Positions 26,257-63,960 of a stretch of DNA of 64,000 bases are shown here, one piece after another. The stretch is from Chionoecetes opilio (lineage: Eukaryota; Arthropoda; Malacostraca; Decapoda; Majidae), in the NCBI GenBank assembly GCA_016584305.1, contig JACEEZ010001805.1, positions 147,501 through 211,500 of the forward strand, read 5' to 3'. Within the stretch, counting starts at the first letter, position 1. The number at the start of each line of letters is the position of its first letter. The notes beneath the pieces are model-generated. The model was not told the DNA's origin. It worked only from the letters and a program-made list of their open reading frames with translations, and did not search any database. Made by a program: the position numbers and the translations under genes.

Positions 26257-27651
26257 TAATACCCTCCCCGTTGATTATATTTATGAATGAAATTTTCCTT
26301 CGTCAAATTAAGAGAATTGTGTTATAGTTACTCATTTCGTAGGTATATCTGCTTCCCCAGCTAATAAGAAACATTCGACACTTCGTGTCCTCGTGGATAA
26401 AGACTCTGGTGAGTATTTGAACACTCGTTAATTCCCGCGGTTTAGCTGTCCTCAGTCCTCCATGAAGGGTCATGCAGCGGCATTAGTTTCTTCCCGTCTC
26501 CCAGGTAAGGTGTTATCGTTTTCGTCTGTAATACCTTTTTTTTTTTTGTGATATGATATCTTAACCAGTGTTAGTCTCCCCCCCCCCCCCCCCCCGTTTA
26601 ACAGTTTACTTTCTTCACCGTCTCCCAGATAAGGTACGCGGATAGATTTATCAAGCGGAATACGTGTTTTCCACATGGTCGCGACTCGCAAACAGTTTTC
26701 ATTACTCTCACATTTTCCCTTCCCTATGTTCTCCATGTACAGGTTGAAGTTCCCAAACTCGGCAACCTCGGGACCAGCGCCGCGCCGAGTAATGGAATTT
26801 TCCGACTTTTAGAACGTAGATATATTAAGGGGGAAAAAAGCATGAAAATCACATATGAAAAAAATCAGTAGGTGTTCCTGGACGTTTGGGAGCCATAATA
26901 CCAATAACAGACCTGTAGAAGTACACAAAATAACAGTGTACAGAACTCTACAGTCACAACACCACTGAACAATAACAACAAATAAATCGGCGGGAGAAAC
27001 CAAGCGGCCTAGTGTGGTGGCACCTAGCGGCCGACCCGGCAACTACGCGCCGGGTTCTGGGTGTTCTGACGTGTTTTGGAAAATCCGGAACCATAGCCGA
27101 GTTTTGGGTGTTGCCGAGTTTGGGAACTTCAACCTGTATATCTTAGGTGTTTATCTTGTATGTAAGTAGATGGTAGGTCTAGGAATATAGTCCAGTGAGG
27201 CAGGTTATGCTCTTTAGAAGCTTTCCTTCACTAAATTAAACCATACATGTACTTAAGTTTTCAACCAGGAATAATTTCTTGTTAAATAAACCAAATGAGT
27301 TAAAGTAGGCATTCTTTTTTTTTCTTGCAAATCCCCAGGTGACTATTCTCTGTTATGGAAATACTTCCCCACGTCCCGAGAGAGGTTCAGACTTACTCGG
27401 TATACTAATAGTATCCCCACGACTACCGTAATCCTTATATATTAAATCGTGTTCAAGGGGTAGACCATAGGAATACCCGCTTGGACTGGTGGCAGCAATT
27501 CCCTACTAAATTAAGTTCATTCCAATTCAGTTGTAACGAGAAGAATTTATCCGTCAGTGGAGATTAACAATTAATAATTCAAATTCATATAACCAGTTCA
27601 AATCAGAGAGAAATAAGCAAAGTAAATTAGGGGAAAAACTCGGGCATCACA
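26257..27651 (+). repeat. Gypsy-1 5' LTR (start truncated)
   Basis: From ATACCCTCCCCGTT onward it matches 36418-37414 at high identity. The first ~540 bp present in the 3' LTR are missing, replaced by MITE fragments. It ends CATCACA at 27645-27651. The MITE at 26740-27136 is absent from the 3' LTR. Confidence 0.8.
26740..27136 (-). mobile_element. Family B MITE copy c, inside the 5' LTR
   Basis: Ends CAGGTTGAAGTTCCCAAAC and TA duplications. The 3' LTR at 36890-36910 has the uninterrupted CTCCATG-TA-TATCTTAGG site, so this copy inserted after Gypsy-1 had integrated. Confidence 0.85.
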
Positions 27652-27652
27652 C

Positions 27653-27673
27653 TGGTGACTTAAGCGGTGGAAC
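27653..27673 (+). promoter_or_regulatory. Candidate primer-binding site of Gypsy-1
   Basis: TGGTGACTTAAGCGGTGG lies one base after the LTR end, where the tRNA primer of reverse transcription would anneal. I have not matched it to a specific tRNA. Confidence 0.4.
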
Positions 27674-27749: not shown

Positions 27750-28296
27750 ATGTACAAAGTCTCATTGGTAGGACACAGTCAACTTCCCCAATCATTCGAT
27801 GTCCCAGGAACTGAAATTAGGATTTTCAGAGCTTCGGGAGGAAGGGCAAATTCCTTTTTCTCAGATGAGACTAAATAGTGTCCTGGAATGGCCACATGAC
27901 CTGTGCATTTTGTGGTTAGGTAGCAACGATATTGCCGATGGCATAGATCCCGGTTCTCTTACTGACACTATCAAGGAAATTACGCGCACAATAGAGAGGA
28001 ATTGTGAGGCGGTAGTGTGCATCTGCTTAATAGAACCACGCATTTATTCAGAAAGAGGACCCATTAGTACGGATGATTATAAAAAGGTACAAAATTCAAT
28101 AAATAAGAAAATAAAGAACTCAAGGAACAACCAAATTATTCACTTTAATACCTCACTATACGTAAACACCTTGGCATCCGACGGTGTTCATTGGATAAAT
28201 GAGGGAAGAAATAAAGTAAATAACAAGCTCATAACAGTAATCAGGGGTCATCTGGAGATGAATGAACCAGAAATCGCGGAGAACCACCCTTATTAG
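27750..28296 (+). pseudogene. SGNH/GDSL-hydrolase-like domain upstream of gag
   Basis: ATG 27750 opens MYKVSLVGHSQLPQSF, an SGNH block I with the catalytic-type Ser in GHS (27771-27779). Block II is the Gly-containing RASGGRAN (about 27828-27850). A frame break near 27870 then leads to LCILWLGSNDIADGI (block III, Asn in GSND, 27919-27930), and the frame ends with block V LASDGVHWINEG (Asp and His, about 28170-28205). All four blocks are present in the usual order over about 180 residues, the length of a single SGNH domain. Function in the element is unknown: acyl-ester hydrolysis or a structural role are both possible. Gag follows within 20 bp. Gypsy-3 has the same blocks. Confidence 0.65.
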
Positions 28297-28311: not shown

Positions 28312-30366
28312 GTGTCCTTGTGTTGGCCGACGGAACATGAGAATCAAGTCTCTACCCGCGTCTATAAGAAGTTTTTCTCCAACGTAATCATGAGTTGGGA
28401 ACAAGGCATGTTTTCCGGTGTAAAAACGGAGGAGGAGGAGGAAGAAGATGGAAACAGAGTGACACAGTTAGAAAATTTAGTGGAGGAATTAAGGGCACAG
28501 TTGAATCAAACCAACCCTTTCCATACCTATCAATTATCCATGGATAACAAAAAAACCGAGATATTCCAATATTAGAGTTATATCAATTACAAGGCCTTGA
28601 CGCAACGGCCCGCCTCCAAATGTTCTTTGAATTAATAGAACAATGTAGCTCGGACGACACGACGCGCATCCAAATTACAAAAGGGAGAGTGAGCTCAGAA
28701 CTCTCAATCTTAATTCACAATTATCAAACGAACCATAAAGTAGAAACATGGGCGGCACTTAGAAATTTTTTCGAGACCGAATTCGCCATCGAAGTGAGTG
28801 TTGATAGAGCCTGGCAGGAATTGGAGGCAATGCATTATGACTGGGGGGAATCTCCTCAAGCTTTCACCCATCGTTTCATCTGTCAACATGCGGTAATTAG
28901 AGAGAACTGAAACTCGAGAAATGCCAGTGGTCGCTGGCAGTTTTAACTCAAAGGTTGGTCTACTGTGTTTTGGCTCCGCGACTAATATTTTTCATAAATC
29001 AATTTCGCGATAAACATTGATGCACCGCATCTGAATACCAAAAAATATAGTTCTTCTGTTGTTCTACTAATTATATGGATGACATTCATTACGATGGAAC
29101 GTTCTATAATAGCAATTTAATGCAAATTACTCGCCTCGAGTAGCAAAGCTTAATATATTTTTAACATGTATATTGTGGCATGTAAAATTTGGGTGATGTT
29201 CACACTGTTTTCTAAGACAGTACTGCTGCGTCTGGCAAACGCTTGTCAAAATACAATAAGCAATGCCTTGGAAAAACGAAGAATAAAGAATGCCGAAATC
29301 GGCTTGTTGCTGCGACAATGTAGGTTATAATTGTGGAGGCGACACGCCGCGGCGGGGAGTGGTGGGTGGGGAGATTGTGGCGGGGAGATTGAATCAAAAC
29401 ATTGCCACTTCACGCGTCGACTCATTGCACTTCCAGGCTTTCTATCTGATTGATACACAATAATAACAGGAAAATATGACTGCCTAGATATAGATAACTT
29501 CTAAACATACGTTATTGACTATATAATATCATAGAGTAACATTTACCTCGCCTCCTCAACTATAACCTACTTGGTTATTTGGTTAAATGCATGTTTTACA
29601 GACTCAGGCTTCTATACAATATACATATAGAAGAAAATCGTTCTTAAAATTATACTTTTGTGTTTTAAGTGCAGTGGAATAAGCCCATATTTTTCTTTCA
29701 AGTTGACCAACTTTTCACCAAATTGTGAGTTAAAACTGCCAGCGACCACTGGCATTTCGGAGTTGCAGTTCTCTCTAATTGCGACGAAATTTCCAAACGA
29801 GAAATTCCCAAACCGTGATAAGACCATAAAAAGGAAACTATGGTACGGTCTACCAGTCCCGTCACGAGAGAAATTAGAAGGATTCCTGGATGAAGGATAT
29901 CCCCTAAAAAAATTCTTAGACCGTCTCGAACACGAACGCCAACTGCTCGAAGACCCATCCCAAGGATTAACATGATCCCAACACCGAAGAGAGAAGGAAA
30001 GGGATTAGACGGGAAAGGAAGCGATAGGTACACACGCTCCCCAAACCCCGAGACCACCAAAGACGAAGTGGAGGAACTAAAACAACAAGTCCGAGAACTT
30101 AAGGCCCGTTTGGCCCAAGAGAAAACAGAAAAACCACACCCCAACACGGGTCCTTCACAAATTGAAACACCCACTCGCAAGTACTGCGCTTATTGTCAGA
30201 CACAAACACATAACCTTCCGGAATGTTGGAGAAAACCTCCATTAGGTCATTGTTTCGACTGTCGCAAACCCGGTTGCCGGAGGGGAAATCGAAATTGTCC
30301 TGGACGTGCCCAGGCAAGTAACACTCAAAATCCGAGTCAAACCCAAAACTCAAAACAATTATCATG
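28312..30366 (+). pseudogene. Gypsy-1 gag (capsid and zinc knuckle)
   Basis: Three open segments are interrupted by a frame change at an A run near 28550 and by a MITE (28899-29775). Segment 1 has an acidic run and a coiled stretch NRVTQLENLVEELRAQL. Segment 2 is capsid-like (IQITKGRVSSELSILIHN, VETWAALRNFFETEF, WQELEAMHYDWGESPQAFTH). Segment 3 continues FPNEKFPNRDK and LPVPSREKLEGFLDEGYPL, then a basic linker. It ends with a zinc knuckle CAYCQTQTHNLPEC (C-x2-C-x4-H-x4-C, 30183-30224) and a second Cys-rich unit. Removing the MITE plus one TAATT restores the reading frame across the join. Confidence 0.7.
28899..29775. mobile_element. 877-bp MITE in gag with TAATT duplication
   Basis: The ends AGAGAGAACTG and CAGTTCTCTCT continue inward as GAAATGCCAGTGGTCGCTGG and its complement, about 55 bp each. 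The target copy TAATT is at 28894-28898 and 29776-29780. There is no transposase frame. The 5-bp duplication and ends separate it from the TA-type families; superfamily unknown. Confidence 0.75.
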
Positions 30367-32134
30367 ACTAGACGGTGACGATATTTCACCTATTATCCAT
30401 GTAAATATTAATGGGAAAATAGTAGAAGCTATAGTAGACACAGGGAGTGGTTATACAGGTTGAAGTTCCCAAACTCGGCATCCCAAGACTCGGCAACACC
30501 CAAAACTCGGCTATGGTTCCATATTTTCCAAAACACGGCAGAACACCCAAAACCCGGCGCGTAGTTGCCGGGTCGGCCGCTAGGTGCCACCACACTAGGC
30601 CGCCAATTTGTTTGTTGTTATTGTTCAGTGGTGTTGACTGTAGAATTGTGTACACTGTTATTTTGTGTACTTCTACAGGTCTGTTATTGGTATTATGGCT
30701 CCCAAACGTCCAGGAACACCTACTGGTGGAAGTGAAAAGAAAAGGAAGAACAATGTGTTAACTATTTCTGAGAAAATTGACCTTTTTTTCCCCTTAATAT
30801 ATCTACGTTCTAAAAGTCGGAAAATTCCATTACTCGGCTCGGCGCTGGTCCCGAGGTTGCCGAGTTTGGGAACTTCAACCTGTACTTTAATCAAAGAATG
30901 TACCGCCAAACGAATCAGAGGGGAAATAAACTTACGATGGAACCTTCCTCAACTTGTGGGAATCACAGACACCCCGTTGAAAATTCTCGGTATGATATGG
31001 GCAGAAATCGAAATCGGTGACGGACAAAGGTTTAAAAAATGGTTCCCCGTTATTCCAGACTCTTATCTCAACGGCGATGTGCTTCTTGGTTGTGACATTC
31101 TCACAAAGGCCACCCTCACCTGGGATGGGAAAAGTAGAGCGATGCGTTGGGGTGACACCCCGCATACCGTTAATCACCTTCGTCGAAAAAGAAACAAAAT
31201 CAAAAGGATACACCGAAATCCTGTGGAACTCGCGAGCCAGCCACGGAAATCTTCACAAATAAACCTTCTCAATCCGGTGAAAGTAAACCCTTACCATTCC
31301 CTGTTTATGCCGGTAAACGTAAACGAGATCCCAGGTTCTGACCTACTTGTCTATCCTCAGGAAAAAGTTAGCAAAACTAGTCACCCCTACTTAGTACAAG
31401 TGACATCAGAAAGTTCTATCTTCACAAATAATACCAAGAAGGAAAAGTTTTTTTGCAAAGGTACTATACTCTGGTCATACGACAAAGTAGAAATTCCTCC
31501 AGCGAAAATAATCAATTCCATTCATGAAATACACAATGACTTAATACCGGAAAACGATAAAGCACAGCCAAAAGGAACCCGAACCCAAAGGCTGAAAGAA
31601 TTAATCAAGGGACAAAAATGGAAACACTTGACAGCTTCAGAACAACAAGAGTTACAAGAAGTAATTCTCGAGAATGATCCGCTTTTCATCTTAGACCAAA
31701 ATGAATTAGGACTCATAAGTGGTCCTCCGGTTCATATAAAGGTGGATGACCCTCAACCCAGTCGAGGACCTACGTACCGTTATCCCGAGAAAGCCAAGGA
31801 GCTAATTTCACATATGCTTCAAGACATGGAAGAACAGAAAATCATAAAAACGTCCACGGCCGCATGGTTGTCACCAATTGTCTTGGTAAATAAACCGGAT
31901 GGTAGTAAGAGAATGTGTTTAGACTATCGACACATAAATAAACATCTCGCCACAGACATCTATCCTCTTCCACGATTAGAAGAATTGGTAGAACAAGCCG
32001 CGGGTCAAAAGTATTATGTTACCCTAGACATGCGCGAAGCATATTTCCAGATATTACTCGATGACGAAAGCCGCGATCTCACCACCTTCAGCGATGGTGT
32101 CACCCTATATCGTTTTCGACGCCTACCGTTCTGA
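30366..32134 (+). pseudogene. Gypsy-1 pol: protease and RT N-terminal part
   Basis: After the gag stop, pol reads IIHVNINGKIVEAIVDTGSG, the retropepsin active-site motif. A MITE (30456-30882) interrupts it one codon later. It resumes LIKECTAKRIRG and VLLGCDILTKATLTWD (protease C-terminal part), then a linker. The RT begins with PTYRYPEKAKELISHMLQDM and has STAAWLSPIVLVNKPDGSKR, MCLDYRHINKHLATDIYPLP and YYVTLDMREAYFQILLDDES (first catalytic Asp). It stops at RRLPF where TGA (32132-32134) replaces the Gly codon expected in the LPFGL motif. The protease and RT would process polyproteins and copy the RNA. Confidence 0.8.
30456..30882 (+). mobile_element. Family B MITE copy d, inside the protease codons
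   Basis: Ends as in copy b, with TA at 30454-30455 and 30883-30884. It splits the protease one codon after DTGSGY. It keeps the stub MAPKRPGTPTGGSEKKRK (ATG about 30695). Confidence 0.85.
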
Positions 32135-33963
32135 CTAAACTGCTCACCCGCTATATTTTCCCGGCGGATGGCTTCAGTATTAACTCCCCTCCTTCAGAAG
32201 GGGTGGGTAAAAAACTACCTAGACGACTTAATTCTATGGGCTCCTACGTTCCCTCTTCTTTTGGAGTGCCTTAATCAGCTTTTTGAACTCCTCACCACGA
32301 ATGGGGTGAAACTTAACCTCAGTAAATGTACTTTTGGACTAAAAGAAGTCACTTTTCTAGGTCATCGAATCTCAGAAGGAAGTAAGCCGGATTTGAAAAA
32401 TGTGGAAGCAGTATCAAAAATTAAAGCTCCCAAAACGGTCAAGGAAGTCCGACGTTTCTTAGGGATGTGTGGTTTCTATAGGAAACATGTTCCCTCATTT
32501 GCGAACGTTGCTGCTCCACTTACTAACTTAACTAGAGCTCACGTCATTTTCGCCTGGATGAATGAATGCCAACACGCGTTCAAACATCTCAAAGCGTGTC
32601 TGATTAACGCGCCGGTCCTGGTTAGGGCGCAAATACATGAACCTTTCATCCTTACGACGGATGCAAGTAACACCCACGTCGGAGGCGTCCTAAGTCAAAT
32701 TCAATCAAATGGTTCAAACTGCCCCATAGGGTATTTTTCCAAGAAATTAAATTCCTGCGAGACCCGTTACTGCGCTACCGATAAAGAAGCGTTGGCAATA
32801 GTTCTCACCTGTAGAATTTCCATCATTATCTCTGGGGTTCGAAATTCTCGATCGTCACGGATCACCAACCTCTCACCAGTATACAGGGAGGTCCCGAAGA
32901 TACGAGCAGTTAGGTTCCACCTGGCATACTCGTAAAGTGAAATCTCGTATAACGAAACACATAACTAATGGTAAAATATAGGTTTGGTTCCAGGACCCCA
33001 TCAATCAAAAAAGAAATAAATAAAAAAAAGACATGTTTTTCAAGCTAAAATAAACTATAGCAAACACAACAAACACACAGTGTCTATATTATCCACACTG
33101 TACTACCTATTATGTAGAAAAAGCATTCTGAAAGAGAAAATAGCACACAAAATAACATAACTGCACATTAATTACACATAAAACATCCATAACAAGCAAA
33201 AAAGACGTTGTTATGTAGGGGACGCCGCATGATACAAGAGAAGGTAGTGTAGCAGTCCCAAGGTTGGGGCCGCACACCTGCTAATTACCCCTAAATGTCA
33301 GGCCGCGCCATATGCTTAATTACCCTTCAGGTCACGCCTTGCTAGGGGTGACCTGACTGCGGTCCCAAGGTTGGGGCCGCACACCTGCTAATTACCCCTA
33401 AATGTCAGGCCGCGCCATATGCTTAATTACCCTTCAGGTCATGCCTTGCTAGGGGTGACCTGACTGCGGTCCCAAGGTTGGGGCCTCACACCTGCTAATT
33501 ACCCTTAAATGTCAGGCCGCGCCATATGCTTAATTACCCTTCAGGTCACGGCTTGCTAGGGGGTGACCTAACTGGGGTCAACCAAATCCCCCTTTGTCCA
33601 GCCCGGGAGTGGTAGGGCCTGCATTTTGAACTTGATACTTATACTCACCCCAGTTTGAATGTCGTGTCATTGAATTTTCGATCTCGTATATTGAAAATAG
33701 ACCTTAATTTACACATCTCGTATCATCGGATTCTCGTATACCGAATGCTCGTATAACGGGACCTCCCTGTATTTAAAAGAAAAACTAAATCTCCCCGGAT
33801 GACCAGATGGATCCTAGAAATGCGCGAATATAACTATGTGGTTAAATACCTGAAAGGTAAAGATAATTTCGTCGCCGATCATCTGTCACGCCCCGTTGGG
33901 GTGATAACCCGTCGGCCCGAGACTACTTGGCTAGGACTAAATCAACAACATTTCAAACTATGA
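32135..33963 (+). pseudogene. Gypsy-1 pol: RT YLDD, RNase H
   Basis: The same frame continues after the TGA: LNCSPAIFSRRM, then NYLDDLILW (YLDD, 32216-32227), thumb motifs TFLGHRISEGSKPDLKNVEA and RRFLGMCGFYRKHVPSFA. RNase H begins FILTTDASNTHVGGVLSQ and YFSKKLNSCETRYCATDKEA. A +1 break near 32815 leads to FHHYLWGSKFSIVTDHQPL. The MITE at 32884-33769 follows, then TRWILEMREYNYVVKYLKGK, DNFVADHLSRPVG and a stop at 33961. The order is a typical Ty3/gypsy pol. Confidence 0.8.
32884..33769 (-). mobile_element. Family A MITE copy 3, inside RNase H
   Basis: Inverted ends CAGGGAGGTCCCG with TA at 32882-32883 and 33770-33771, opposite in orientation to the copy at 2366. It has three tandem ~107-bp units at about 33265-33590. 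It splits RNase H shortly after TDHQPLT. Confidence 0.85.
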
Positions 33964-33978
33964 CAACGGGAAGAACCC

Positions 33979-35265
33979 GTGTGGAAAGAATTAGTGGAAT
34001 ATCTGGAGGGAGGTAGAGTTCCTACGAAACGCATACCGAAAGCCACTTTAGATCTATTTACAGTAATAAATGACATACTGTACTATGTCCGAGAAAAAAC
34101 AGATGGAAGCCTGCAATATGTCCTCATAATTCCTCGTAGTATGATTATCCCCGCTCTCCAACATGCGCATGAATTATCAGGTCACTTAGGACAAAAGAAA
34201 ACTATTAAGAAGGCCGAGGAACTATACTATTGGACAAATCTGAAAGTGGATGTGTGTGAATATGTCAAGAATTGTGTAACTTGTCAAAGATTTAAAGGAA
34301 ATAGCGGGTTACAACAACCCTGGAAGGAATTACCCCCAGTGGATAAACCTTTAGAGAGGATAGGGATAGATCTCACTGATATGGTAGCCGGAGCACAAGG
34401 TTACCGCTATGTTATGACGGTAGTCGACCATTACAATAGGTTTGTTAGGTTTCTCCCCCTTAAGACCAAACACACTACACACATAATAAAGACCACGTGG
34501 CAGTACCTGGCCGACTATGGGGCACCCCGCAACATCGTCCTGGACAAAGGAGAATTCACCAGCAAGGAGTTCCAGCAGTTCTGCACACGACACCAGATCA
34601 CTCTCTGTTATACGACCCCCTACCATCCTCAAGGAAACTCAGTGACCGAGAGGATGCACAGGACTCTTAAGTCAGTCCTCTCGACCCTGTGTCAAGGTCA
34701 CCCTCTTCGCTGGCCCACGTTGTTGCAGCCGTGCCAAATCACCATGAATCAAGCGGTACACACCTCCAAAAGACAACAAACCTATTTCGCTTTCTTCTCT
34801 CGCCATGCCCCCAGGCTAGTTGGGACATCCTTACCCGGCGTTGAGGGAGAACAAGACGACATGAACGTGGCCCACGCCCTAATCCGGGAGACGCATCAGA
34901 AAATGTCGCGTCGGTACAGAGACGTCGCCAACCGAAAGCGGAAAAATCAAGTGGTGGAGGTAGGAGCACTGATATGGGTCAGGAAAGAGACCACCATACC
35001 AGGCACATGCCATAAACTAAATGTGAAATGGGATGGGATCTATAGGGTAGTGGAGGTACGTTTGAGTGGGAGTGTATATGTGTTGAAAAATGTTTTCACG
35101 GGAAAGGAAGTGCAACGGGCCGCCGAGCAAGTGAAGCCTTATCACGGCAGTGAAGAGTGGTTAGTGGAACCGGTGGAAAGTGTCTTACAACCCAATCCGG
35201 TGGATGGACAATTAGCCCCTCGTATAAGGAGACCTCCTAGAAGGCTCATCGAGGAAGACTGAGTG
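33979..35265 (+). pseudogene. Gypsy-1 integrase with GPY/F-like C-terminus
   Basis: An intact 427-residue frame. The HHCC zinc domain is H...HELSGHLGQKK...CEYVKNCVTCQ. The catalytic core shows Asp in RIGIDLTDM, Asp in VLDKGEFTSKEF and Glu in NSVTERMHRTLK, so all three DDE residues are present; the usual SDNG is LDKG here. The C-terminal part has GALIWVRK and KLNVKWDGIYRVVEVRLSGS, like a GPY/F module, and ends in a Pro/Arg-rich tail. Only a TGA at 33961-33963 separates it from the RNase H region, so it would be part of the pol polyprotein, not a separate gene. It would insert the cDNA. Confidence 0.8.
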
Positions 35266-35876
35266 AAATTTTAGGTTAAGATGTGTTAGGAGTAGATACT
35301 GAATCACGGAGGTGAGTGTGTGTCGGACTAGATAAAACAATTTGGCCTAGGAGATTTCTCATTTCTAGAATTCGGAGTATCTATTTTCACGGGCTCAGCC
35401 TGGTTCAGTGAGAGGAGTATTTTGATTCGAGATAGTAGTACTTGCTACTCAACCACAGTCAACCAGCTTGCGGTGTAGCGGATATTTCAGGACTTGTTAG
35501 GCTCTCGTTATCTAACCATGAGGGTAGCCGGCGTGCACTTATGGGACGTTCCTAGCGACGAGAATACGGGTACTGAGTCAGGGTTTGACGACCACGTTAC
35601 TACCCAGGTAAGAGGTTGATTGGGATACTTTCCTCTCAGTGGATTATTCGTGTAGTTTATGCACATTCCGGTATCCCCATGAGGTATATACCGACAGATA
35701 CCCGTTCAAAGAATAGTAGGATATCCAGTAAATTAACCATAAATACGTCCCATTCACACACATTCTCTTGACATAGATTTCGAAAGGAAACGGAGGGTCA
35801 GTATGTAGTTAATTTGATGTTAAAAAATTTAATTCTCCCGGAGGATAAACGTGTGTAGTGCCGGAAAATTCCAAGA
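35266..35876 (+). other. Gypsy-1 3' untranslated region
   Basis: About 610 bp lie between the pol stop and the 3' LTR, with no long frame and no env-like gene. A polypurine tract is not obvious; GGAGGATAAACG and GGAAAATTCCAAGAG near the LTR are candidates. Confidence 0.5.
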
Positions 35877-37414
35877 GTGTGATGGAAATTTCCATCACAC
35901 AATTTCTGAGTTATATGTCTATGAAAGGAAAGAGAAGGTTTCAATAACCATAGGTTTAGTCTAGACTAAGTGTTGCCTAAATCCAGTATATAGGGGAACA
36001 GGTTATTTATTAGAATAAGGCCATTCAAATTATTTCATTTCTCGTATTATTTATCTTTCATTCGTATGCTTCTCTCTCTCTCTCTCTTGCATTCCTATCT
36101 CCCCCCCTCCATCCTCCTTCTTCCCCCCCCAAACGCCAGAGCCACGAGGTATAATATGCGAGACATTAATTTCGCGATTGCCAATAACTTGTAGTCAAAA
36201 CTTCTTATTCCCCCCTTACCCTCCTGGCAGATCGAATAACACTCTTAGATTCTGAGTATCCTTAAAAAAAGGACAAAATAGAGTTGTGTTTCGCATGTTA
36301 ATGCATAGATTAGTAGAGTCAGTCGCTTGAATTAAGAGTCGGCCAAGATTCTATCACGCTTCAAAATACCCTGCCACTGTGAAAAACGCGTTCGTATGGC
36401 CGTTCTGGATTAAGTTTGATACCCTCCCCGTTGGATTATATTTATGAATTAAATTTTCCTTCATCAAATTAAGAGAATTGTGTTATAGTTACTCATTTCG
36501 TAGGTATATCTGCTTCCCCAGCTAATAAGAAACATTCGACACTTCGTGTCCTCGTTGATGAAGACTCTGGTGAGTATTTGAACACTCGTTAATTCCCGCG
36601 GTTTAGCTGTCCTCAGTCCTCTATGAAGGGTCATGCAGCGGCATTAGTTTCTTCCCGTCTCCCAGGTAAGGTGTTATCGTTTTCGTCTCTAATACCTTTT
36701 TTTTTTTTGTGATATGATATCTTAACCAGTGTTAGTCTCCTCCCCCCCCCCCCCCCCCGTTTAACAGTTTAGTTTCTTCACCGTCTCCCAGATAAGGTAC
36801 GCGGATAGATTTATCAAGCGGAATACGTGTTTTCCACATGGTCGCGACTCGCAAACAGTTTTCATTACTCTCACATTTTCCCTTCCCTATGATCTCCATG
36901 TATATCTTAGGTGTTTATCTTGTATGTATGTAGATGGTAGGTCTAGGAATATAGTCCAGTGAGGCAGGTTATGCTCTTTAGAAGCTTTCCTTCACTAAAT
37001 TAAACCATACATGTACTTAAGTTTTCAACCAGGAATAATTTCTTGTTAAATAAACCAAATGAGTTAAAGTAGGCATTCTTTTTTTTTCTTGCAAAACCCC
37101 AGGTGACTATTCTCTGTTATGGAAATACTTCCCCACGTCCCGAGAGAGTTTCAGACTTACTCGGTATACTAATAGTATCCCCACGACTACCGTAATCCTT
37201 ATATATTAAATCGTGTTCAAGGGGTAGACCATAGGAATACCCGCTTGGACTGGTGGCAGCAATTCCCTACTAAAGTAAGTTCATTCCAATTCAGTTGTAA
37301 CGAGAATTTATCCGTCAGTGGAGATTAACAATTAATAATCCAAATTCATATAACCAGTTCAAATCAGAGAGAGAAATAAGCAAAGTAAATTAGGGGAAAA
37401 ACTCGGGCATCACA
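35877..37414 (+). repeat. Gypsy-1 3' LTR
   Basis: It starts TGTGATGGAAATTTCCATC (locally palindromic) and ends CATCACA, giving 7-bp inverted termini over about 1.54 kb. 36418-37414 matches the 5' LTR. It is directly followed by a family A fragment, so the outer duplication is not visible. Confidence 0.7.
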
Positions 37415-37415
37415 C

Positions 37416-37889
37416 TAGCAAGGCTTGACCTGAAGGGTAATTAAGCATATGGCGCAGCCTGACCTTTAGGGGTAATTAGCAGGTGTGCAGCCCCAACCTT
37501 GGGACCGCTACACTACCTTCTCTTGTATCACGCGGGGTCCCCTACATTACGTCTTTTTTGCTTGTTATGCATGTTTTATGTTTAATTAATGTGCAGTTAT
37601 GTTATTTTGTGTGCTATTTTCTCTTTCAGAATGCTTTTTCTACAGAATAGGTAGTACAGTGTGGGTAATATAGACGCTGTGTGTTTGTTGTGTTTGCTAT
37701 AGTTTATTTTAGCTTGAAAAACGTTTTTTTTTTTTTTATTTATTTTTTTTTTTATTTTTTTTTAGTGATGGGGTCCTGGAACCAAACCTATACATGTATT
37801 TTACCATTAGTTATGTTTCGTTATACGAGATTTCGCTTTACGAGTATGCCAGGTGGAACCTAACTGCTCGTATCTTCGGGACCTCCCTG
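37416..37889 (+). mobile_element. Family A fragment (right part)
   Basis: It starts within a tandem unit (AGCAAGGCTTGACCTGAAGG) and ends with the family right end GGGACCTCCCTG plus TA. The left ~300 bp are missing, and the Gypsy-1 LTR abuts directly. Confidence 0.7.
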
Positions 37890-56889: not shown

Positions 56890-57190
56890 CCGTTGGTACT
56901 CCGTAGTGTAGTGGTTAGCACGCTCGGTTCACAACCGAGAAGTCCCGGGTTCGATCCCCGGGCGGAGCGGAAACATATGGGTTGTTTCCTTAAAACCCCA
57001 GCCCCTGTCCACCCAGCAGTGAATGGGTACCGGGTGTCAGCCGGGGGTTTGTGACCCCCCTCCCGGGGTGGTGGCTTCGGCCAACACTAAAAAGATGAAT
57101 GAGAAAAATAAATATTGATATGGAGACGGGGCCATACGAGCGTTGCTCTGGCCCTGTAAAATACAACTAGATGAATACAACTAGATGAAT
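56890..57190 (+). mobile_element. tRNA-Val-derived SINE with LINE-type tail
   Basis: A tRNA head (56898-56969) is followed by a tRNA-unrelated body: CCCAGCAGTGAATGGGTACC, GGGTGTCAGCC. The 3' end is GGAGACGGGGCCATACGAGC, then CTGGCCCTGTAAAATACAAC and repeats of ACTAGATGAATAC. The last part is the 3' end of the CR1-like LINE next to it, so the SINE probably borrows that LINE's machinery. Confidence 0.75.
56898..56969 (+). tRNA. tRNA-Val(CAC)-like head of the SINE
   Basis: Cloverleaf parts: D-arm/A box TAGTGTAGTGGTTAGCACGC, anticodon stem CTCGG/CCGAG with loop TTCACAA (anticodon CAC), T-arm CCGGGTTCGATCCCCGG and an imperfect acceptor stem (CTCCG/CGGAG). The first acceptor pair is mismatched. 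It lies inside a SINE, so it is unlikely to be a functional tRNA gene. Confidence 0.6.
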
Positions 57191-57783: not shown

Positions 57784-57872
57784 TTCTGAGGATGTGCCAG
57801 TTGGGGAGGGTCAATATAATGTATGGAGGCGAAACAGAAATCAGAAAAAGGGAGGTGGTGTAATGGTGCTAA
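57656..57872 (+). pseudogene. LINE ORF2 start: endonuclease domain
   Basis: MKKGWQVSYTNINGLVSTLT, VNDYLRAKKPDILGLVETKL and GGGVMVL are the first motifs of an APE-type endonuclease (TNINGL, then the ETKL acidic Glu). The frame is cut at 57873 by the Gypsy-3 LTR. It overlaps ORF1 by about 125 bp in another frame. Confidence 0.6.
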
Positions 57873-58500
57873 TGTAACGCGAGAAATTACATTAATAGGG
57901 GAAGAGATGAAATAACACATAAGTATCAATAAGCTAACGAGGAATTTTCCTCCACGCCTCATTCCTGAATCACTGGTTAGGCTTATATTTTAAACCAGTA
58001 GTAATTAGACACGTAGCGAAACGAGGTGAGAACGGGGATTCTAGGTTAGAATAATTTTAGAAGCAGCTCAACGTTCGTTGAGTTAAGTCGCCTGTGGGGA
58101 GGTGTATTCCGCCCTTGGAAAAGGTATTTTAAAATTTTTGTTAACAAAGGATGTGAATGACTTACGGGTGATTTTTTTTGTTGCCAAGACTAATGAATGC
58201 ATTCTTAGGTCCCAAGTAGGATCTGTTGGGGGACCGGGGGGCCAAGCGCTCACAAATTAGCAGAGGGGGCAACCACAACAGCACACCACCCCGTGTGAGG
58301 AAAAGGAGAAAAAAAGGGAAATAAAAAAAATAATGAGGAAACATTTGGGAAGGGGATAGGAACTATATACATTTTTAGGAAACGCTTGGTTACATAGCGA
58401 CTTAAGGGGTAACAGTCGACTAAGTTAAAAGATGAAACTTTGGATCGATTGACTTTCGCGTCTTTGGGGGAGGGGGAAGACTTAATTTAAGATAACGGGA
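57873..58500 (+). repeat. Gypsy-3 putative 5' LTR
   Basis: It matches the minus-strand LTR segment ending at 11335 (for example CAGTTAAGTCGCCTGTG-like, CTAATTAGCAG, CGTGTGAGGAAAAGGAG). The end is not determined; the units GGTAACAGTCGACTAAGTT near 58410 correspond to the tandem repeat at 10716-10925. Confidence 0.5.
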
Positions 58501-58849
58501 ATGTTAATTTTACATAAGGGAGCGAAAAAGATTTAATATTTTAAAATTTAGAAATATGTTTAACCTTTTTATCTTCTGTTCCAACCATCCTTACTATTTT
58601 CTTAAATCTTTTTTTTGTTCAATCATATATTTTTTCCCACTTATGGGGGGGTGGCACGGAAAAAAGGACTGTGGGGTACACTCCCAAGGGTGGGCAACAT
58701 AATGGTAAAAAAGGGTTGAAGGCAAAAGACCATTTTTTTTTGGTGAAGCTTTTTTGGATCCTTCGATGTTTCCGCTTACCCCGACCAACAAACTCCTTGT
58801 TAGTTAATTATTTTTGAAAGTGCCAGTACACAGGGTCATACCATGTAAA

Positions 58850-59295
58850 AGGTATTTTTATGGGACATACCAGATCCCCAGATGTGGAGGTGTGACCCTA
58901 ACGTAACAGTAGAATTTTACAAGCGCCGGGAGGAAAGGCTAAAACCCTTCCTTGTAGAGGGACAGACTAAAGGGAGTATTACAGAAAGAATTTGATTTGT
59001 TCCTATTTAGGCAGTAATGATTTAAAAGGAAACGTAGTGAAGCAATATGGAAGATTTAGGAAAGTGTAGAAACTTAAAGGAAACGTCCGATGTGAGAAAG
59101 GTTTGTATATAAACATAGGATCTACAACCTTACCTAGGAAGTAGAACAAAAAAATTATGATAAAAAAAGAGGGCAATAAACAATAAATTAAATAAAAACT
59201 ACGCGTATGGGAAAATTTAAGCTTTAACCCAAACCCTTTTCCCGGGCTTAGCGTTGACGGGGTGCTTTTGGGTGGGACGAGCGGGGGTTTTAAAT
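58850..59295 (+). pseudogene. SGNH-hydrolase-like remnant of Gypsy-3
   Basis: Readable in different frames and in order: IFMGHTRSP (about 58854, like VGHSQLP of block I), APGGKA (58923-58940, block II), CSYLGSNDLKG (58999-59030, block III) and DGV with LGGTSGG text (59256-59285; with one base added it would fit DGVHFGWDERG, block V). Spacing between blocks is close to that in Gypsy-1 (about 70, 76 and 257 bp against about 60, 85 and 260). Confidence 0.5.
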
Positions 59296-59299
59296 GAAA

Positions 59300-61470
59300 G
59301 CTAGAAAATGAAATAGGACAAATATCAGGCTGGGCGGGCAGTGCGGCGTTAGGAGGGCCTGGCCCCACCGAATTAGGAAAAAAAATCGTAATAAGTGTTG
59401 GGGTTTGGAAACGCCCCAGAAAGAAAGCATTTTGGAGGGTTGTCGTGGGTTTAATAGCCACCGGGGGAAGCCAACCTAGTTGGAAAAAATCGGGGAAAAA
59501 TATACTTTTTTTTTATTTAGGGAAAGGAAATTTTTTTTTTAAGATGGAGGATTAATGGATTTTTAAATGAGGATTTGGAGGATTTCCCCCCAAAGGAAGC
59601 AAAGGGTAGCGGCTTAAGAAGGGGGAAAGGAGTAAACACACGAGAAGGCAAACCAGTCCCGAACAATGCACGATTAAAGTGGATGAGTCAAGAAAAAGAA
59701 GTAGCAAAGACAAAAAGAAAGGGTTGATTTTTTTTTAAAAAAGGAGGAGGAGCGGAATTGGAGCCCAAATGAGATCTTTAATAAAACCGAGAGATATACA
59801 AAACTGAACCTGGGATTTAAAAAGGTATCGAACAGGGGGAAGGTTGACAGTTTTCCTTTCCCAGGTAAAAATTTTGTTCAAAGGGATTTGAAGAGAAAAA
59901 GGGATCTTATGTATAGAGTAATCCGCATTAGCCTTTTGATACAGAAGCCCTCAGTCAGCATGATTTTAGATCATGGAACCCCAAAATTTTTGTTTATACG
60001 AGGGCTAACAGACAAAAATTGACAGAATCCTTAACAGTTTTTCTGAAAGCCAGTATGACGGATGGAAATCCACAAAATTTAAAATAAACTAAAATGCAAA
60101 AACGCCATACTGGAAGCGAAGTCAAATACCCAGGAAAATTTTCCCCGTAGGGATAAAATCATTAAAAAAAAAACTTTTTCGGGTTTCCCAATCACAGTAA
60201 AGATAAATTAGAACTTTTTATGGATGAAAAATCCTAAAAAAAAATTCATAAGAGAGGGAGACCGAAGGGCCTTTGCCATGGGAAGAGACCCCCGACAAAT
60301 TTCGGGGAAAAACCCCAGCAGCCGTCGAAATAACCCCGCTTCCAGAGTACCTCCCAACACAGGGGAACAGTCACGGGGAACTGTGGGCTAGTCAGTCAAG
60401 GTTAGAGAACTGCGTGCACAGAGGGGAAGGGGGAGGGGAAGGGGAAAATTACAACCGGGAAAGTATGAAACGACCAAACCGTCGGTTTATTTGGAAAGGG
60501 ATTCACGATTTTTTTGTCCCTATTGAATAAAACAACCCTCAGCCGCAGACTGTCGAAGGAAAAAATGCAACGCTTGTTTCGTTGGGGGAAATGGGATGTA
60601 GAAGGGGAACCCAAAATTTGCCCGGGGGAGGACGGATCTTCCCGTGACATTTAACATAAAATCCCCAAAAAATCCCCTTAGCCATTAATGATAACGTCAG
60701 GAATTTTTTAGACCAGGAAGCAAATATTCATTTATAAAAAAAGTGCAGCTTTAGTTTTTTACACAAAAAATAAGAACCCCAGTAACATCCCTATTTAAAC
60801 CCGGGTATACGGGAAAAGGGTTGGGTCTTAGGTCAAGAAAGGGTAAAAATCCCCTTGGAATAGATGAAAATAGAAGTTTTGATTTTAGCTGTTAAAAGAT
60901 CAGTATTTATCCACCCAAGCCTGATGGGGAAACAAAATGGGCTAAAAGAATAACTATAAATTACAAAAAAAAAAAGTCATGGGGGCAACCCTAACTTTAT
61001 CCCTAAATTTTTGTTAAAAGGGGGGGGATACGGTACCATCAAGCTTTTAAGATTTGAAAAGTGCAAGGGGAGGCAAAAATAAAAGCTGTCATAAAAGGGA
61101 TACAACAAAGTGTGACCAAAAACCAAAAAAACTAAAGGGTTTTAAAAATTGTCAGTGACGAGGTAGGGGGAACCCCTTTGGGTGACCAAAAAAACAAGGC
61201 AAAATGCACCTGTATGCATCCAGTTACAAAAGAAAGAACTATCTTTCTACCAATTTTTAATAACATAGGGACAGCTGAAGTTACGCCCTGGTACAATTTT
61301 AGCAAAATATAGAGTAGTAAACCAGAAAAAAATTCAAGCCCAATTACGGCAGAAACACTTTGTCTCCCCCTAGGATGGAACGCAAGTTACCCGATAGTGA
61401 TGGTAGCGAGGGTAATGGTACTCGACCGGAGCGAATACAGGCAATTCTAAAAAAAGGAGACTAAAACATT
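59300..61470 (+). pseudogene. Gypsy-3 gag/protease region, scrambled
   Basis: By position this should be gag and protease. Short pieces are plausible but none is diagnostic: a charged stretch near 59570-59700 and a frame at 60273-60530 with TPAAVEITPLPEYLPTQGNS. I see no clear zinc knuckle or DTG. Part of the interval (60760-60960) may be other insertions. Confidence 0.3.
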
Positions 61471-61479
61471 TAAGTGAAC

Positions 61480-62360
61480 AGGAGAGGCATCATCTTTCGC
61501 CTTGAAAAAAGAGCCCATGAACTTTTTTATCTTAGATGCAGGAGAACTGGGTACCTGAAAACTGAACCCGCTCATATTCAGGTGTTAGTCCAAAAATTGT
61601 AGAGGAGTTCCATTAGGTATCCGGAGAAAGCTAAGAACTAATACAAAAATGTTGAGAGAAAGGAAGAGAAGGACATAATAAAAATTTCCAGCTGCGGGGG
61701 TTAACCCTATTACGGGTTAAAACCCAATGGGGAAAAAAAAGGATGTGTCGGGGGTATAAAAAGGTGAATAAACTTTTTACCCACTGATATACCCCCCTCC
61801 CTAAATTGGGAAGAGTTAGTAAAATTTCGGTACGGGCTATGAAACTAGGGCCACCCTAGATAAAAAGTGCGTATTATAAAGTACGTTAGGAAAGTAGTAA
61901 AGACTAACAACTTTCAGTAAAGGGTATCCTTATATAGATTAAAAAGACTTTCCCTTTGGTTTAAAATTGCAGTGCAGCAATTTTCTCACGCAAATTAGCC
62001 CAATCTTAACCCCTTTCGAAAAAAAATTGGCTTAAAAATTATCTGGATGACTAACCCTGATGGCACCCTTTTACGAGAAATTTTTGAAAGGATCAAAATT
62101 ATTTGGACTCTGACAGATTTGGGTAAAATTAAATCTGCCCAAAATTTAAAAATAGCAAAAAAAAGTTAATTTTCGGGGACATTTATGAAAAGGGAAGGTT
62201 CCAACCCAACCAACAATATGGCGCCGTAGATAAAATAAAACCCCAAAAATGTCAAGGAAACCAGAAGATTTCTAGGTATGGTAGTTTCTATGGGAAGTAC
62301 ATAAAGGTTCGCAAGATGCAGTGCCTATCACAATTTGACCAAAAAAGAAACCCATTAAAA
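61480..62360 (+). pseudogene. Gypsy-3 reverse transcriptase remnant
   Basis: Read across frames it parallels Gypsy-1: LDAGELG, EPAHIQV, SGESxELI, DVSGV (the C-L-D-YR motif, mutated), and NYLDD at 62036-62050 (AATTATCTGGATGAC), then TRRFLGMVVSM. The YLDD box is intact; the frame is not. Confidence 0.55.
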
Positions 62361-62436
62361 TGGTCAGGGGAAAACCGCAAGTTTTCAATTTTAAAGGATA
62401 AACGACTAGTGCCCCCATCTTAACAAAGGCCCAAAT

Positions 62437-63960
62437 TTAATAACCATTTGTTGGATACCGATGCAGCCAAACCACGGGGAGCATAGGGGGGATGCAGTAT
62501 AGTGATGAGGGCAACCCAAAAGTAATCTCATTTTTAAAGAAATTAAAACCATTTGAGACGCGATACTCGCGACAGTGGGAACTTAGGAATGTTTTAGCTT
62601 GCAGACAGTTCATCTTTTCTTGGGGGGGAACCAGGTGATCATCAGAAAAACCCAAAAACCGTTAGTGTCAGTCTTTAAACAACGACCAAGTCCCCTAGGA
62701 TGAAAAATGGATCCAAGATGAGAGACTATAGTTCAGATAAGTAAAAAGCGGGAAAAAAACACTGTAGAAACCCAAAACTTAGTAGACCAGTAAAATCATT
62801 CGATTCAATAGAAGAGAGGTGGTTAAAAAAACAAGAAAAAGTAAAAATGCAAGAGGGGCCCATAGAGGGAGAAAATGATAGAGTATTAAAGGGAGGCAAT
62901 ACCCAGATCAAAAATACCCCAGAAAACTTTAGATCAATTGAAATAAAGGGGAAATTTTATATTTAACTAAACCCAGTTCGATAACAGTATACATATTTTT
63001 GGTTTTACCTATGAACGAAGCGAGGGGCTTGGAATTAATTCACAAAAAAGGAAGGGTCTTTTAGGGCAGAGAAATCAATAAAAAAGCAAAAAGGCTATTT
63101 TTTTTGGGCCCCAACCTGAAAAGGGGTTGAGAGAATAGGGGGAACTTTTGAAACCCAAACACAAAAGGGGTAGTCGGGGGACCCAACAAAAGGGCAAGAA
63201 ATCCCATCATAAGTAAACCTCTAGAGAGGAAAGATAGACAAAACAGACTGGGAACGGGACCCCACGGATCCGCTATGTATTCCCCATAATAGATCTATAG
63301 TGGGTTTACTACTTTTTTAAATTAAGGACTAGGAGACCGACGAAGTAGTAAGAATTTTGGGGGAAATGTCTTTTATTTGGAGCCCCAATACCTTGTTATT
63401 GGAAAAATGCAAGGATTTTTCGTCACAACAATTCAAAGAGTTTTGTACTCATTGGATACAATTAGGATACCCACCCCTTCCCAAAACCAAAGGTAAAGTA
63501 CTCAGAAAGGTGCACCGAAAAGAAAACATTTTCAAGCCGTGAAAGGTTTCCCTAGGTGGCCCCAATTATCTTTTAGAAAAAAAAAGAGTTTAAATAGTGC
63601 AGTGCGAAAATGGGCCCAACCTTTCTAGCTTTTTTTTCCCGATACCTCCAAGGTTGATTATGTAAATTACCACAAATTGCTCAGGGGATAAAAAACATTT
63701 GGCACCGAAAAAAACAAAGAACAAATTTGGAGAGAGGTAAAAAAATGGGGGGAAAAGTTAATGTAAAAAGGAAAATAAAAGGTTGGAAAAAGACGAATTG
63801 GCGGGGGGAAAAAAGAAACTTTTTGAAGGGGCCCCAAATAAAAATTTTCATTTAAGTGGTTGGGACCTCAAAGTGGGGGAAGTATTGAGAGTGGGGTTCA
63901 TATGTATTAAAAATATTTTGACGGCAAACATGTACGCGCGGGGCCGAGAAAATTTAAAGC
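62437..63960 (+). pseudogene. Gypsy-3 RNase H and integrase remnant
   Basis: RNase H: LLDTDAAKPRGA, FETRYSRQWELRNVLACRQF and IIRKTQKPLVSVFKQR parallel the TDAS, ETRY..TDKEAL and TDHQPL segments of Gypsy-1. Integrase: FSSQQFKEFCTHW at about 63420-63455 parallels FTSKEFQQFCTRH, and SYVLKIF near 63900 parallels YVLKNVFTGK. The catalytic Asp and Glu motifs are not readable in one frame. Confidence 0.5.

Follow-up and report, generated by a model that had tools for sequence, protein, structure and literature searches.

A decayed SGNH-hydrolase frame ahead of gag in a snow crab gypsy element, with open relatives in Ty3/gypsy and BEL/Pao retrotransposons

The genes gag and pol are commonly regarded as all that a long terminal repeat (LTR) retrotransposon needs, env being the usual extra. 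What, then, is a hydrolase-like frame doing ahead of gag? This question is raised by a 64,000-nucleotide stretch of the snow crab Chionoecetes opilio (contig JACEEZ010001805.1, positions 147,501 to 211,500; hereafter the window), in which a Ty3/gypsy element (element 1) contains two pieces of an open reading frame (ORF) with the sequence blocks of SGNH (GDSL) hydrolases:

27750..27875, + strand: SGNH ORF piece 1, with blocks I (GHSQ) and II (SGGR); ATG at 27750; an in-frame TAG follows
27856..28296, + strand: SGNH ORF piece 2, in another frame, with WLGSND, LIEPR and DGVHW; stop codon TAG at 28294-28296

Judging from this sequence and its relatives, the pieces are probably a decayed copy of a self-standing SGNH-hydrolase gene (ORF0), the first gene of several crab LTR lineages, which would encode an active enzyme that aids Gag at the membrane. 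The basis for this reading is the predicted fold of a relative, the catalytic residues, the position before gag, a low ratio of nonsynonymous to synonymous substitution (dN/dS) and the occurrence in both LTR superfamilies.

A preliminary description of the window had taken GHSQ, SGGR, WLGSND and DGVHW for one SGNH domain, carried by a gypsy-type element between the primer-binding region and gag. All four motifs are found where it had placed them, split over two frames, with piece 1 reading MYKVSLVGHSQ..ASGGR..SFFSDETK, and the domain assignment is confirmed by the intact relative P0003, whose residues 1-40 and 37-181 align with the window at 75% and 66% identity (E 9.7e-69). A chance motif match as the origin of the blocks is ruled out by this alignment. 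The two frames are separated by a single shift, located at about 27856-27872, so the window copy is a pseudogene, dead and decayed. It is marginal by Pfam alone, as the window ORF 27799-28293 reaches E 9.1e-5 and 23.1 bits with Lipase_GDSL (cut-off 23.6) and piece 1 has no Pfam match. The proposed position was also borne out (LTR repeat end at 27653, SGNH start at 27750, gag ATG at 28390), and the interpretation as a gypsy-carried domain is supported by intact relatives, which match SGNH profiles and keep the place ahead of gag.

A search of the crab's own genome with P0003 as query gave at least 151 SGNH matches at E <= 0.001, a lower bound since 150 of 1244 first-look candidates were scored; 18 of the 20 best matches contain no stop. 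The loci examined (10 places with flanks, 2 downstream stretches and 12 shorter places) include three of element 1's own lineage, A (L030, L031 and L032). Each of these has an open SGNH ORF of 182 codons from position 901, ending with TAG at 1447-1449, a gag ATG at 1543 and reverse transcriptase (RT)-like frames downstream of gag, so that the SGNH frame keeps its place between LTR and gag in 3/3. Other gypsy copies belong to lineage C (L036, L052 and the fragments L035 and L037) or lineage D (L038), and L050 is a further one as judged by its gag match. Gag comes next on the same strand after SGNH in all 16 loci with downstream DNA (L030-L039 and L048-L053; nine gypsy and seven BEL/Pao), which were picked via their SGNH match and give no measure of relatives without it. 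P0084 (GWK47_015517, a C. opilio gene model) is letter-identical to the SGNH (1-166) and gag start of L052, and therefore represents no independent species. Scans of viral and prokaryote contigs gave no relatives.

Beyond what the preliminary description had seen, the SGNH module is present in Ty3/gypsy and BEL/Pao elements alike. A different type of gag stands behind SGNH in L033, L034, L039, L048, L049, L051 and L053. The gag of L033 matches DUF1759 (E 3e-21), and L040, the pol behind the L034 copy, contains a Pao Peptidase_A17 (E 9.9e-46), RT and integrase, as does L041. L033, L034 with L040, and L041 thus display the DUF1759 gag, Peptidase A17, RT, H2C2 integrase and LTRs of BEL/Pao elements; this pol was seen for two copies (L040 and L041), and the other BEL loci were assigned by gag match. 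The sequence preceding SGNH recurs behind pol (204 columns before the L034 SGNH in L040, at 95.6% identity; L033:68-866 at L040:3992-4783, at 86%), which identifies it as an LTR. In L033, SGNH starts 34 bp past the LTR, after the primer-site-like TTTGGTGCCCTGAG. L034 (C6745:525032-530800) has a second BEL-type SGNH ORF on the same strand, 2.3 kb from the first, and the same LTR end precedes each.

By profile, residues and predicted fold, these proteins are members of the SGNH (GDSL) hydrolase superfamily, and an esterase, lipase or acetylhydrolase activity is predicted for them. All eight relatives scanned match the GDSL model PF13472 (E 1.2e-5 to 5.2e-9), and seven match PF00657 too. Five (P0003, P0084, P0044, P0021 and P0096) pass the Pfam cut-off of at least one model, and P0063, P0061 and P0099 are below the cut-offs; of two own-genome ORFs scanned, that of L033 passes PF00657. 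Structure prediction for one relative gave an SGNH hydrolase (flavodoxin-like) fold. Across 98 proteins, the letters of blocks I, II, III and V are kept as Ser (90/92), Gly (94/94), Asn (97/98) and His (85/87), and in a set of 19 ORFs from the crab's own genome, 18 have the Ser, 16 the block-II Gly, 17 the Asp, and all of them the Asn and His.

Selection was estimated by pairwise Nei-Gojobori comparison with summed ratios. The dN/dS of SGNH is 0.18 in lineage A (28 pairs, 8 sequences, window piece 2 included), 0.12 in BEL (21 pairs, 7 sequences) and 0.17 in lineage C (6 pairs, 4 sequences), compared with 0.22 (3 pairs), 0.34 (3 pairs) and 0.27 (1 pair) for gag, all copies being taken from best matches, which lowers the ratio; L042-L045 (A) and L046-L047 (BEL), which have no downstream DNA, were placed by SGNH similarity alone. 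A structural relic, as the preliminary description had also considered, is a fitting term for the broken window copy; for the family it is unlikely, given these ratios.

The gypsy and BEL/Pao superfamilies split long ago. SGNH identity is 41% (A-C), 49% (A-D) and 35% (C-D) within gypsy, and 43% (A-BEL), 45% (D-BEL) and 37% (C-BEL) between gypsy and BEL. For gag, it is 37% (A-C) and 39% (A-D), with no A-BEL match (E 0.24), and the A and BEL integrases are 26% identical (E 4.6e-5). SGNH changes about as fast as gag, yet its similarity between gypsy and BEL is high, from which we infer that the module was exchanged between them. In trees with 19 rows from the crab's own genome, 38 or 16 protein rows chosen by hand and two rows from long interspersed nuclear elements (LINEs), BEL SGNH forms a single clade (99/99) and, on the very distant LINE root, falls between lineage C and lineages A plus D. 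A C-terminal tail, W-x-x-x-QALGG, is common to BEL and lineage C; A and D are without it.

How might such an element express its genes? In the proposed order (LTR, primer site, SGNH, gag, pol, LTR), the SGNH ORF is first, so it would be translated from the full-length message, and Gag would then need reinitiation, internal entry or splicing. In lineage C (L035, L036, L037 and L052), all 4 copies have a donor GTAAATG near the SGNH end, and 3/4 have a Y-rich CAAG acceptor where the gag ATG stands; splicing there, with removal of a putative intron of 228-278 nt, would join SGNH in frame to Gag, and the P0084 gene model treats the spacer as an intron. Real splicing in this lineage is therefore possible. 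A fusion of SGNH and Gag as the general form was rejected: the P0084 model looks fused, but the DNA of L052 has the SGNH TAG, with gag 153 bp later. TAG readthrough from SGNH into gag was also rejected, since an uninterrupted frame leads from the TAG to gag in the window and L031, but not in L030 and L032. Between SGNH stop and gag ATG, lineage C also contains a conserved folding element of about 90 nt (L035:1493-1585, z -5.15; L037:1501-1588, z -5.96; L036:1498-1585, z -2.45), with a possible role in packaging or internal ribosome entry. No such spacer fold was found in lineage A (L030-L032, z 0.25 to 0.46) or BEL (L033, z -0.46; L049, z 0.87; the L048 stretch lay mostly within its SGNH ORF end and is uninformative), and an Rfam search with one lineage-C spacer (L037) gave one chance-level hit (E 0.83). 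Further downstream, gag ends with TGA and protease follows in the same frame in 4/6 copies (L031:2647-2649, L032:2668-2670, L036:2767-2769 and window 30365-30367); the exceptions are L030, with a frame break inside gag, and L038, with pol in a different frame. This arrangement suggests readthrough of TGA between gag and pol.

The SGNH protein may be an active esterase or lipase, binding or cleaving phospholipids or acyl groups at a membrane. There it may aid the placing, assembly or release of Gag particles, a role that has been put forward for the LINE ORF1 esterase. By analogy with the ZfL2-1 esterase (PMC3905857), it might combine membrane targeting with slow acyl hydrolysis around Gag assembly, and the module may have passed between LTR superfamilies. 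A broader proposal, possible but doubtful, is that SGNH ORF0 is a mobile cassette swapped between gypsy and BEL elements, a lipid-acting, envelope-free means of membrane assembly and of passage between cells or in the germline; it would be expressed before Gag or, in a single lineage, by splicing to it in frame.

Several points weigh against a conserved, active hydrolase exchanged between superfamilies. Neither Pfam cut-off is reached by the intact SGNH ORF of L030 (lineage A), profile comparison with PDB sequences gave weak similarity at best (E 0.009, a designed protein), and block I is GHS, the usual form being GDS. The choice of best matches favors low dN/dS, and one SGNH pair has a ratio of 1.11 at dS 0.035. 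The exchange rests on relative identity; the approximately unbiased (AU) test did not reject a single grouping of all gypsy SGNH (12 rows vs 9, p 0.317), and a nesting of BEL SGNH within gypsy SGNH was dropped on this non-significant result. Moreover, some open copies have lost Ser, Gly or Asp, and His is replaced by Gln in two Petrolisthes proteins. Such losses would also fit an unlikely alternative, in which SGNH is retained as a binding domain, an adaptor for membrane, RNA or Gag similar to the OSK domain of Oskar, and hydrolysis is irrelevant. OSK (PF17182) has an SGNH-like fold used in germ-plasm assembly, and its model is also matched, short of the cut-off, by two of the eight relatives (E 0.00079 and 0.0017); however, the crab SGNH keeps its catalytic residues, which are nearly invariant over the 98 proteins, with Asn and His in 19/19 own-genome ORFs.

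It is rather unlikely that SGNH substitutes for an envelope in entry, exit or cell-to-cell passage. This role has been suggested for rotifer GDSL ORF3 (PMC5408684), and the place before gag is in common with the sORFs of MDG1 elements, for which there is the sORF2 proposal (PMC11952523). In a three-frame reading of 35262-36418, from pol to the 3' LTR of the decayed element 1, no env-like frame was seen, although absence in a single decayed copy is weak evidence. Borrowing from ORF1 of a CR1/L2-type LINE appears very unlikely. Many LINE SGNH ORF1s do exist in the same genome: among the best 28 of 56 own-genome PF00657 matches, 26 are LINE-type SGNH ahead of APE endonuclease and RT (APE-RT; L001-L018, L020-L026 and L028), and L019 and L027 are distant SGNH without APE-RT. 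However, the LINE type has GDS in block I and the LTR type GHS, their similarity is distant, at superfamily level only (hhalign probability 76.6, E 2.1e-5), and a very long branch separates them. A LINE ORF1 would be followed by APE-RT in an element without LTRs, and the next gene here is a gypsy or BEL gag in 16/16 loci. A LINE origin of the window frame was rejected, as none of those best 28 loci matches GHS-type queries. Given the abundant GDS-type SGNH ahead of APE-RT, the retroelements of the snow crab genome carry two separate sets of SGNH domains, LTR-type and LINE-type. A functionless passenger, stemming from a single chance capture of a host gene close to an LTR, is hardly credible: the SGNH copies of elements 1 and 2 in the window are broken, but the module occurs in several lineages of two superfamilies, stops are absent from most top matches, and dN/dS is low in three lineages.

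The other parts of element 1 are as follows:

26259..27653, + strand: 5' LTR, in two pieces 97.7% and 98.1% identical to the 3' LTR
26740-27134: insert of ~395 bp splitting the 5' LTR
27653..27670, + strand: putative primer-binding-site-like TGGTGACTTAAGCGGTGG at the LTR end, assigned by sequence
28390..30367, + strand: gag remnant with a CX2CX4HX4C knuckle, frame-shifted and insert-broken; TGA at its end, from which the protease frame continues
30368..30455, + strand: start of the protease frame (DTGS), cut by an insert
30845..32935, + strand: RT and RNase H frames (RVT_1, E 3.4e-8; RT_RNaseH_2, E 9.7e-28)
33979..35262, + strand: integrase frame (Integrase_H2C2, E 3.3e-18; rve, E 3.2e-15)
36419..37416, + strand: 3' LTR

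Two LTRs, a primer site, the gag knuckle, DTGS and the order RT, RNase H, integrase mark element 1 as Ty3/gypsy, with broken frames. TGGTGACTTAAGCGGTGG is identical in L030, and variants of it occur in L031, L032 and L038. The gag piece 28572-28907 is 94%, 91% and 86% identical to the gag of L030, L031 and L032, respectively. By eye, no short repeat common to the flanks was found as a target site duplication, the exact LTR ends being unsure. By eye, gag contains an insert of ~0.87 kb (near 28908-29775) with inverted repeats at its two ends, resembling a non-autonomous DNA transposon. The inserts at 26740-27134 and 30483-30885 (protease-RT region) are copies of a single sequence in opposite orientation, 95-98% complementary. 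Between RNase H and integrase, 33252-33572 consists of three tandem 107-nt units (98%, 89%), found inverted at 37415-37559.

A second element was also recognized in the window:

57872..58734, + strand: 5' LTR of element 2; its partner lies outside the window (L029:760-1648, 79% identity)
58848..59330 (approximate, by eye), + strand: degraded SGNH remnant with GHT, APGGK, LGSND and DGV left, in several frames
59544..59870, + strand: gag remnant matching the gag part of P0084 (E 3.7e-4)
62010..62626, + strand: RT/RNase H remnant, 30% identical to element 1 (E 1.1e-7)

Element 2 is akin to gypsy lineage C, and its 5' LTR is 80-82% identical to the sequence preceding SGNH in L036. Its SGNH gave a tblastn match for the first part only (58857-59024, best E 5.3e-5), and no integrase match was found. 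A tRNA-Val(cac) gene was called at 56897-56970.

A conserved hydrolase before gag in both superfamilies suggests a shared, perhaps exchangeable function around Gag and membranes, and the many open SGNH ORFs make the role of lipids in retrotransposition testable. Among the matches listed in a search of open-licence literature, with subscription papers and Repbase outside its scope, no title or abstract start described SGNH ahead of gag. Look-ups of the terms SGNH, GDSL and esterase gave nothing in PMC3118150, PMC10454600, PMC3587641 and PMC6338049, and in PMC6431247 and PMC5718144 they gave rotifer GDSL only. The Troyka superfamily was rejected as a precedent, there being no SGNH mention in the abstract of its paper or by term search. 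As far as these searches go, the place before gag, the BEL/Pao carriers and the sharing between gypsy and BEL are new within that literature.

Several known systems invite comparison. Fish Texim SGNH genes travel with a mobile element, the Helitron, as the crab frames do with theirs, but this is a DNA transposon, and the gene bears introns and has no linked reverse transcriptase (PMC4021074). The MDG1 group of Drosophila (412) also has extra ORFs between LTR and gag, sORF1 and sORF2, which are implicated in envelope-free soma-to-germline passage; sORF2, however, is a transmembrane FAST-like protein of 63-107 aa (PMC11952523), in contrast to the crab SGNH enzyme of ~180 aa. The precedents for SGNH in retroelements are the LINE ORF1 esterases and rotifer GDSL ORF3. 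The former, known from CR1/L2/RTEX LINEs, share the SGNH fold and the place as first ORF ahead of the polymerase, and that of ZfL2-1 (ORF1p, PDB 4c1b) hydrolyses pNP-acetate and binds acidic phospholipids; they differ in being part of a coiled-coil ORF1p in elements without gag (PMC3905857). The latter, the GDSL esterase/lipase ORF3 of Vesta elements in bdelloid rotifers, is likewise an SGNH/GDSL ORF of LTR retrotransposons with catalytic residues kept, of a kind common to retroelement classes; by its description, it is set apart in following pol, in the place of env (PMC5408684), whereas the crab SGNH precedes gag. Beside these two, the crab frames would be a further association of SGNH with retroelements.
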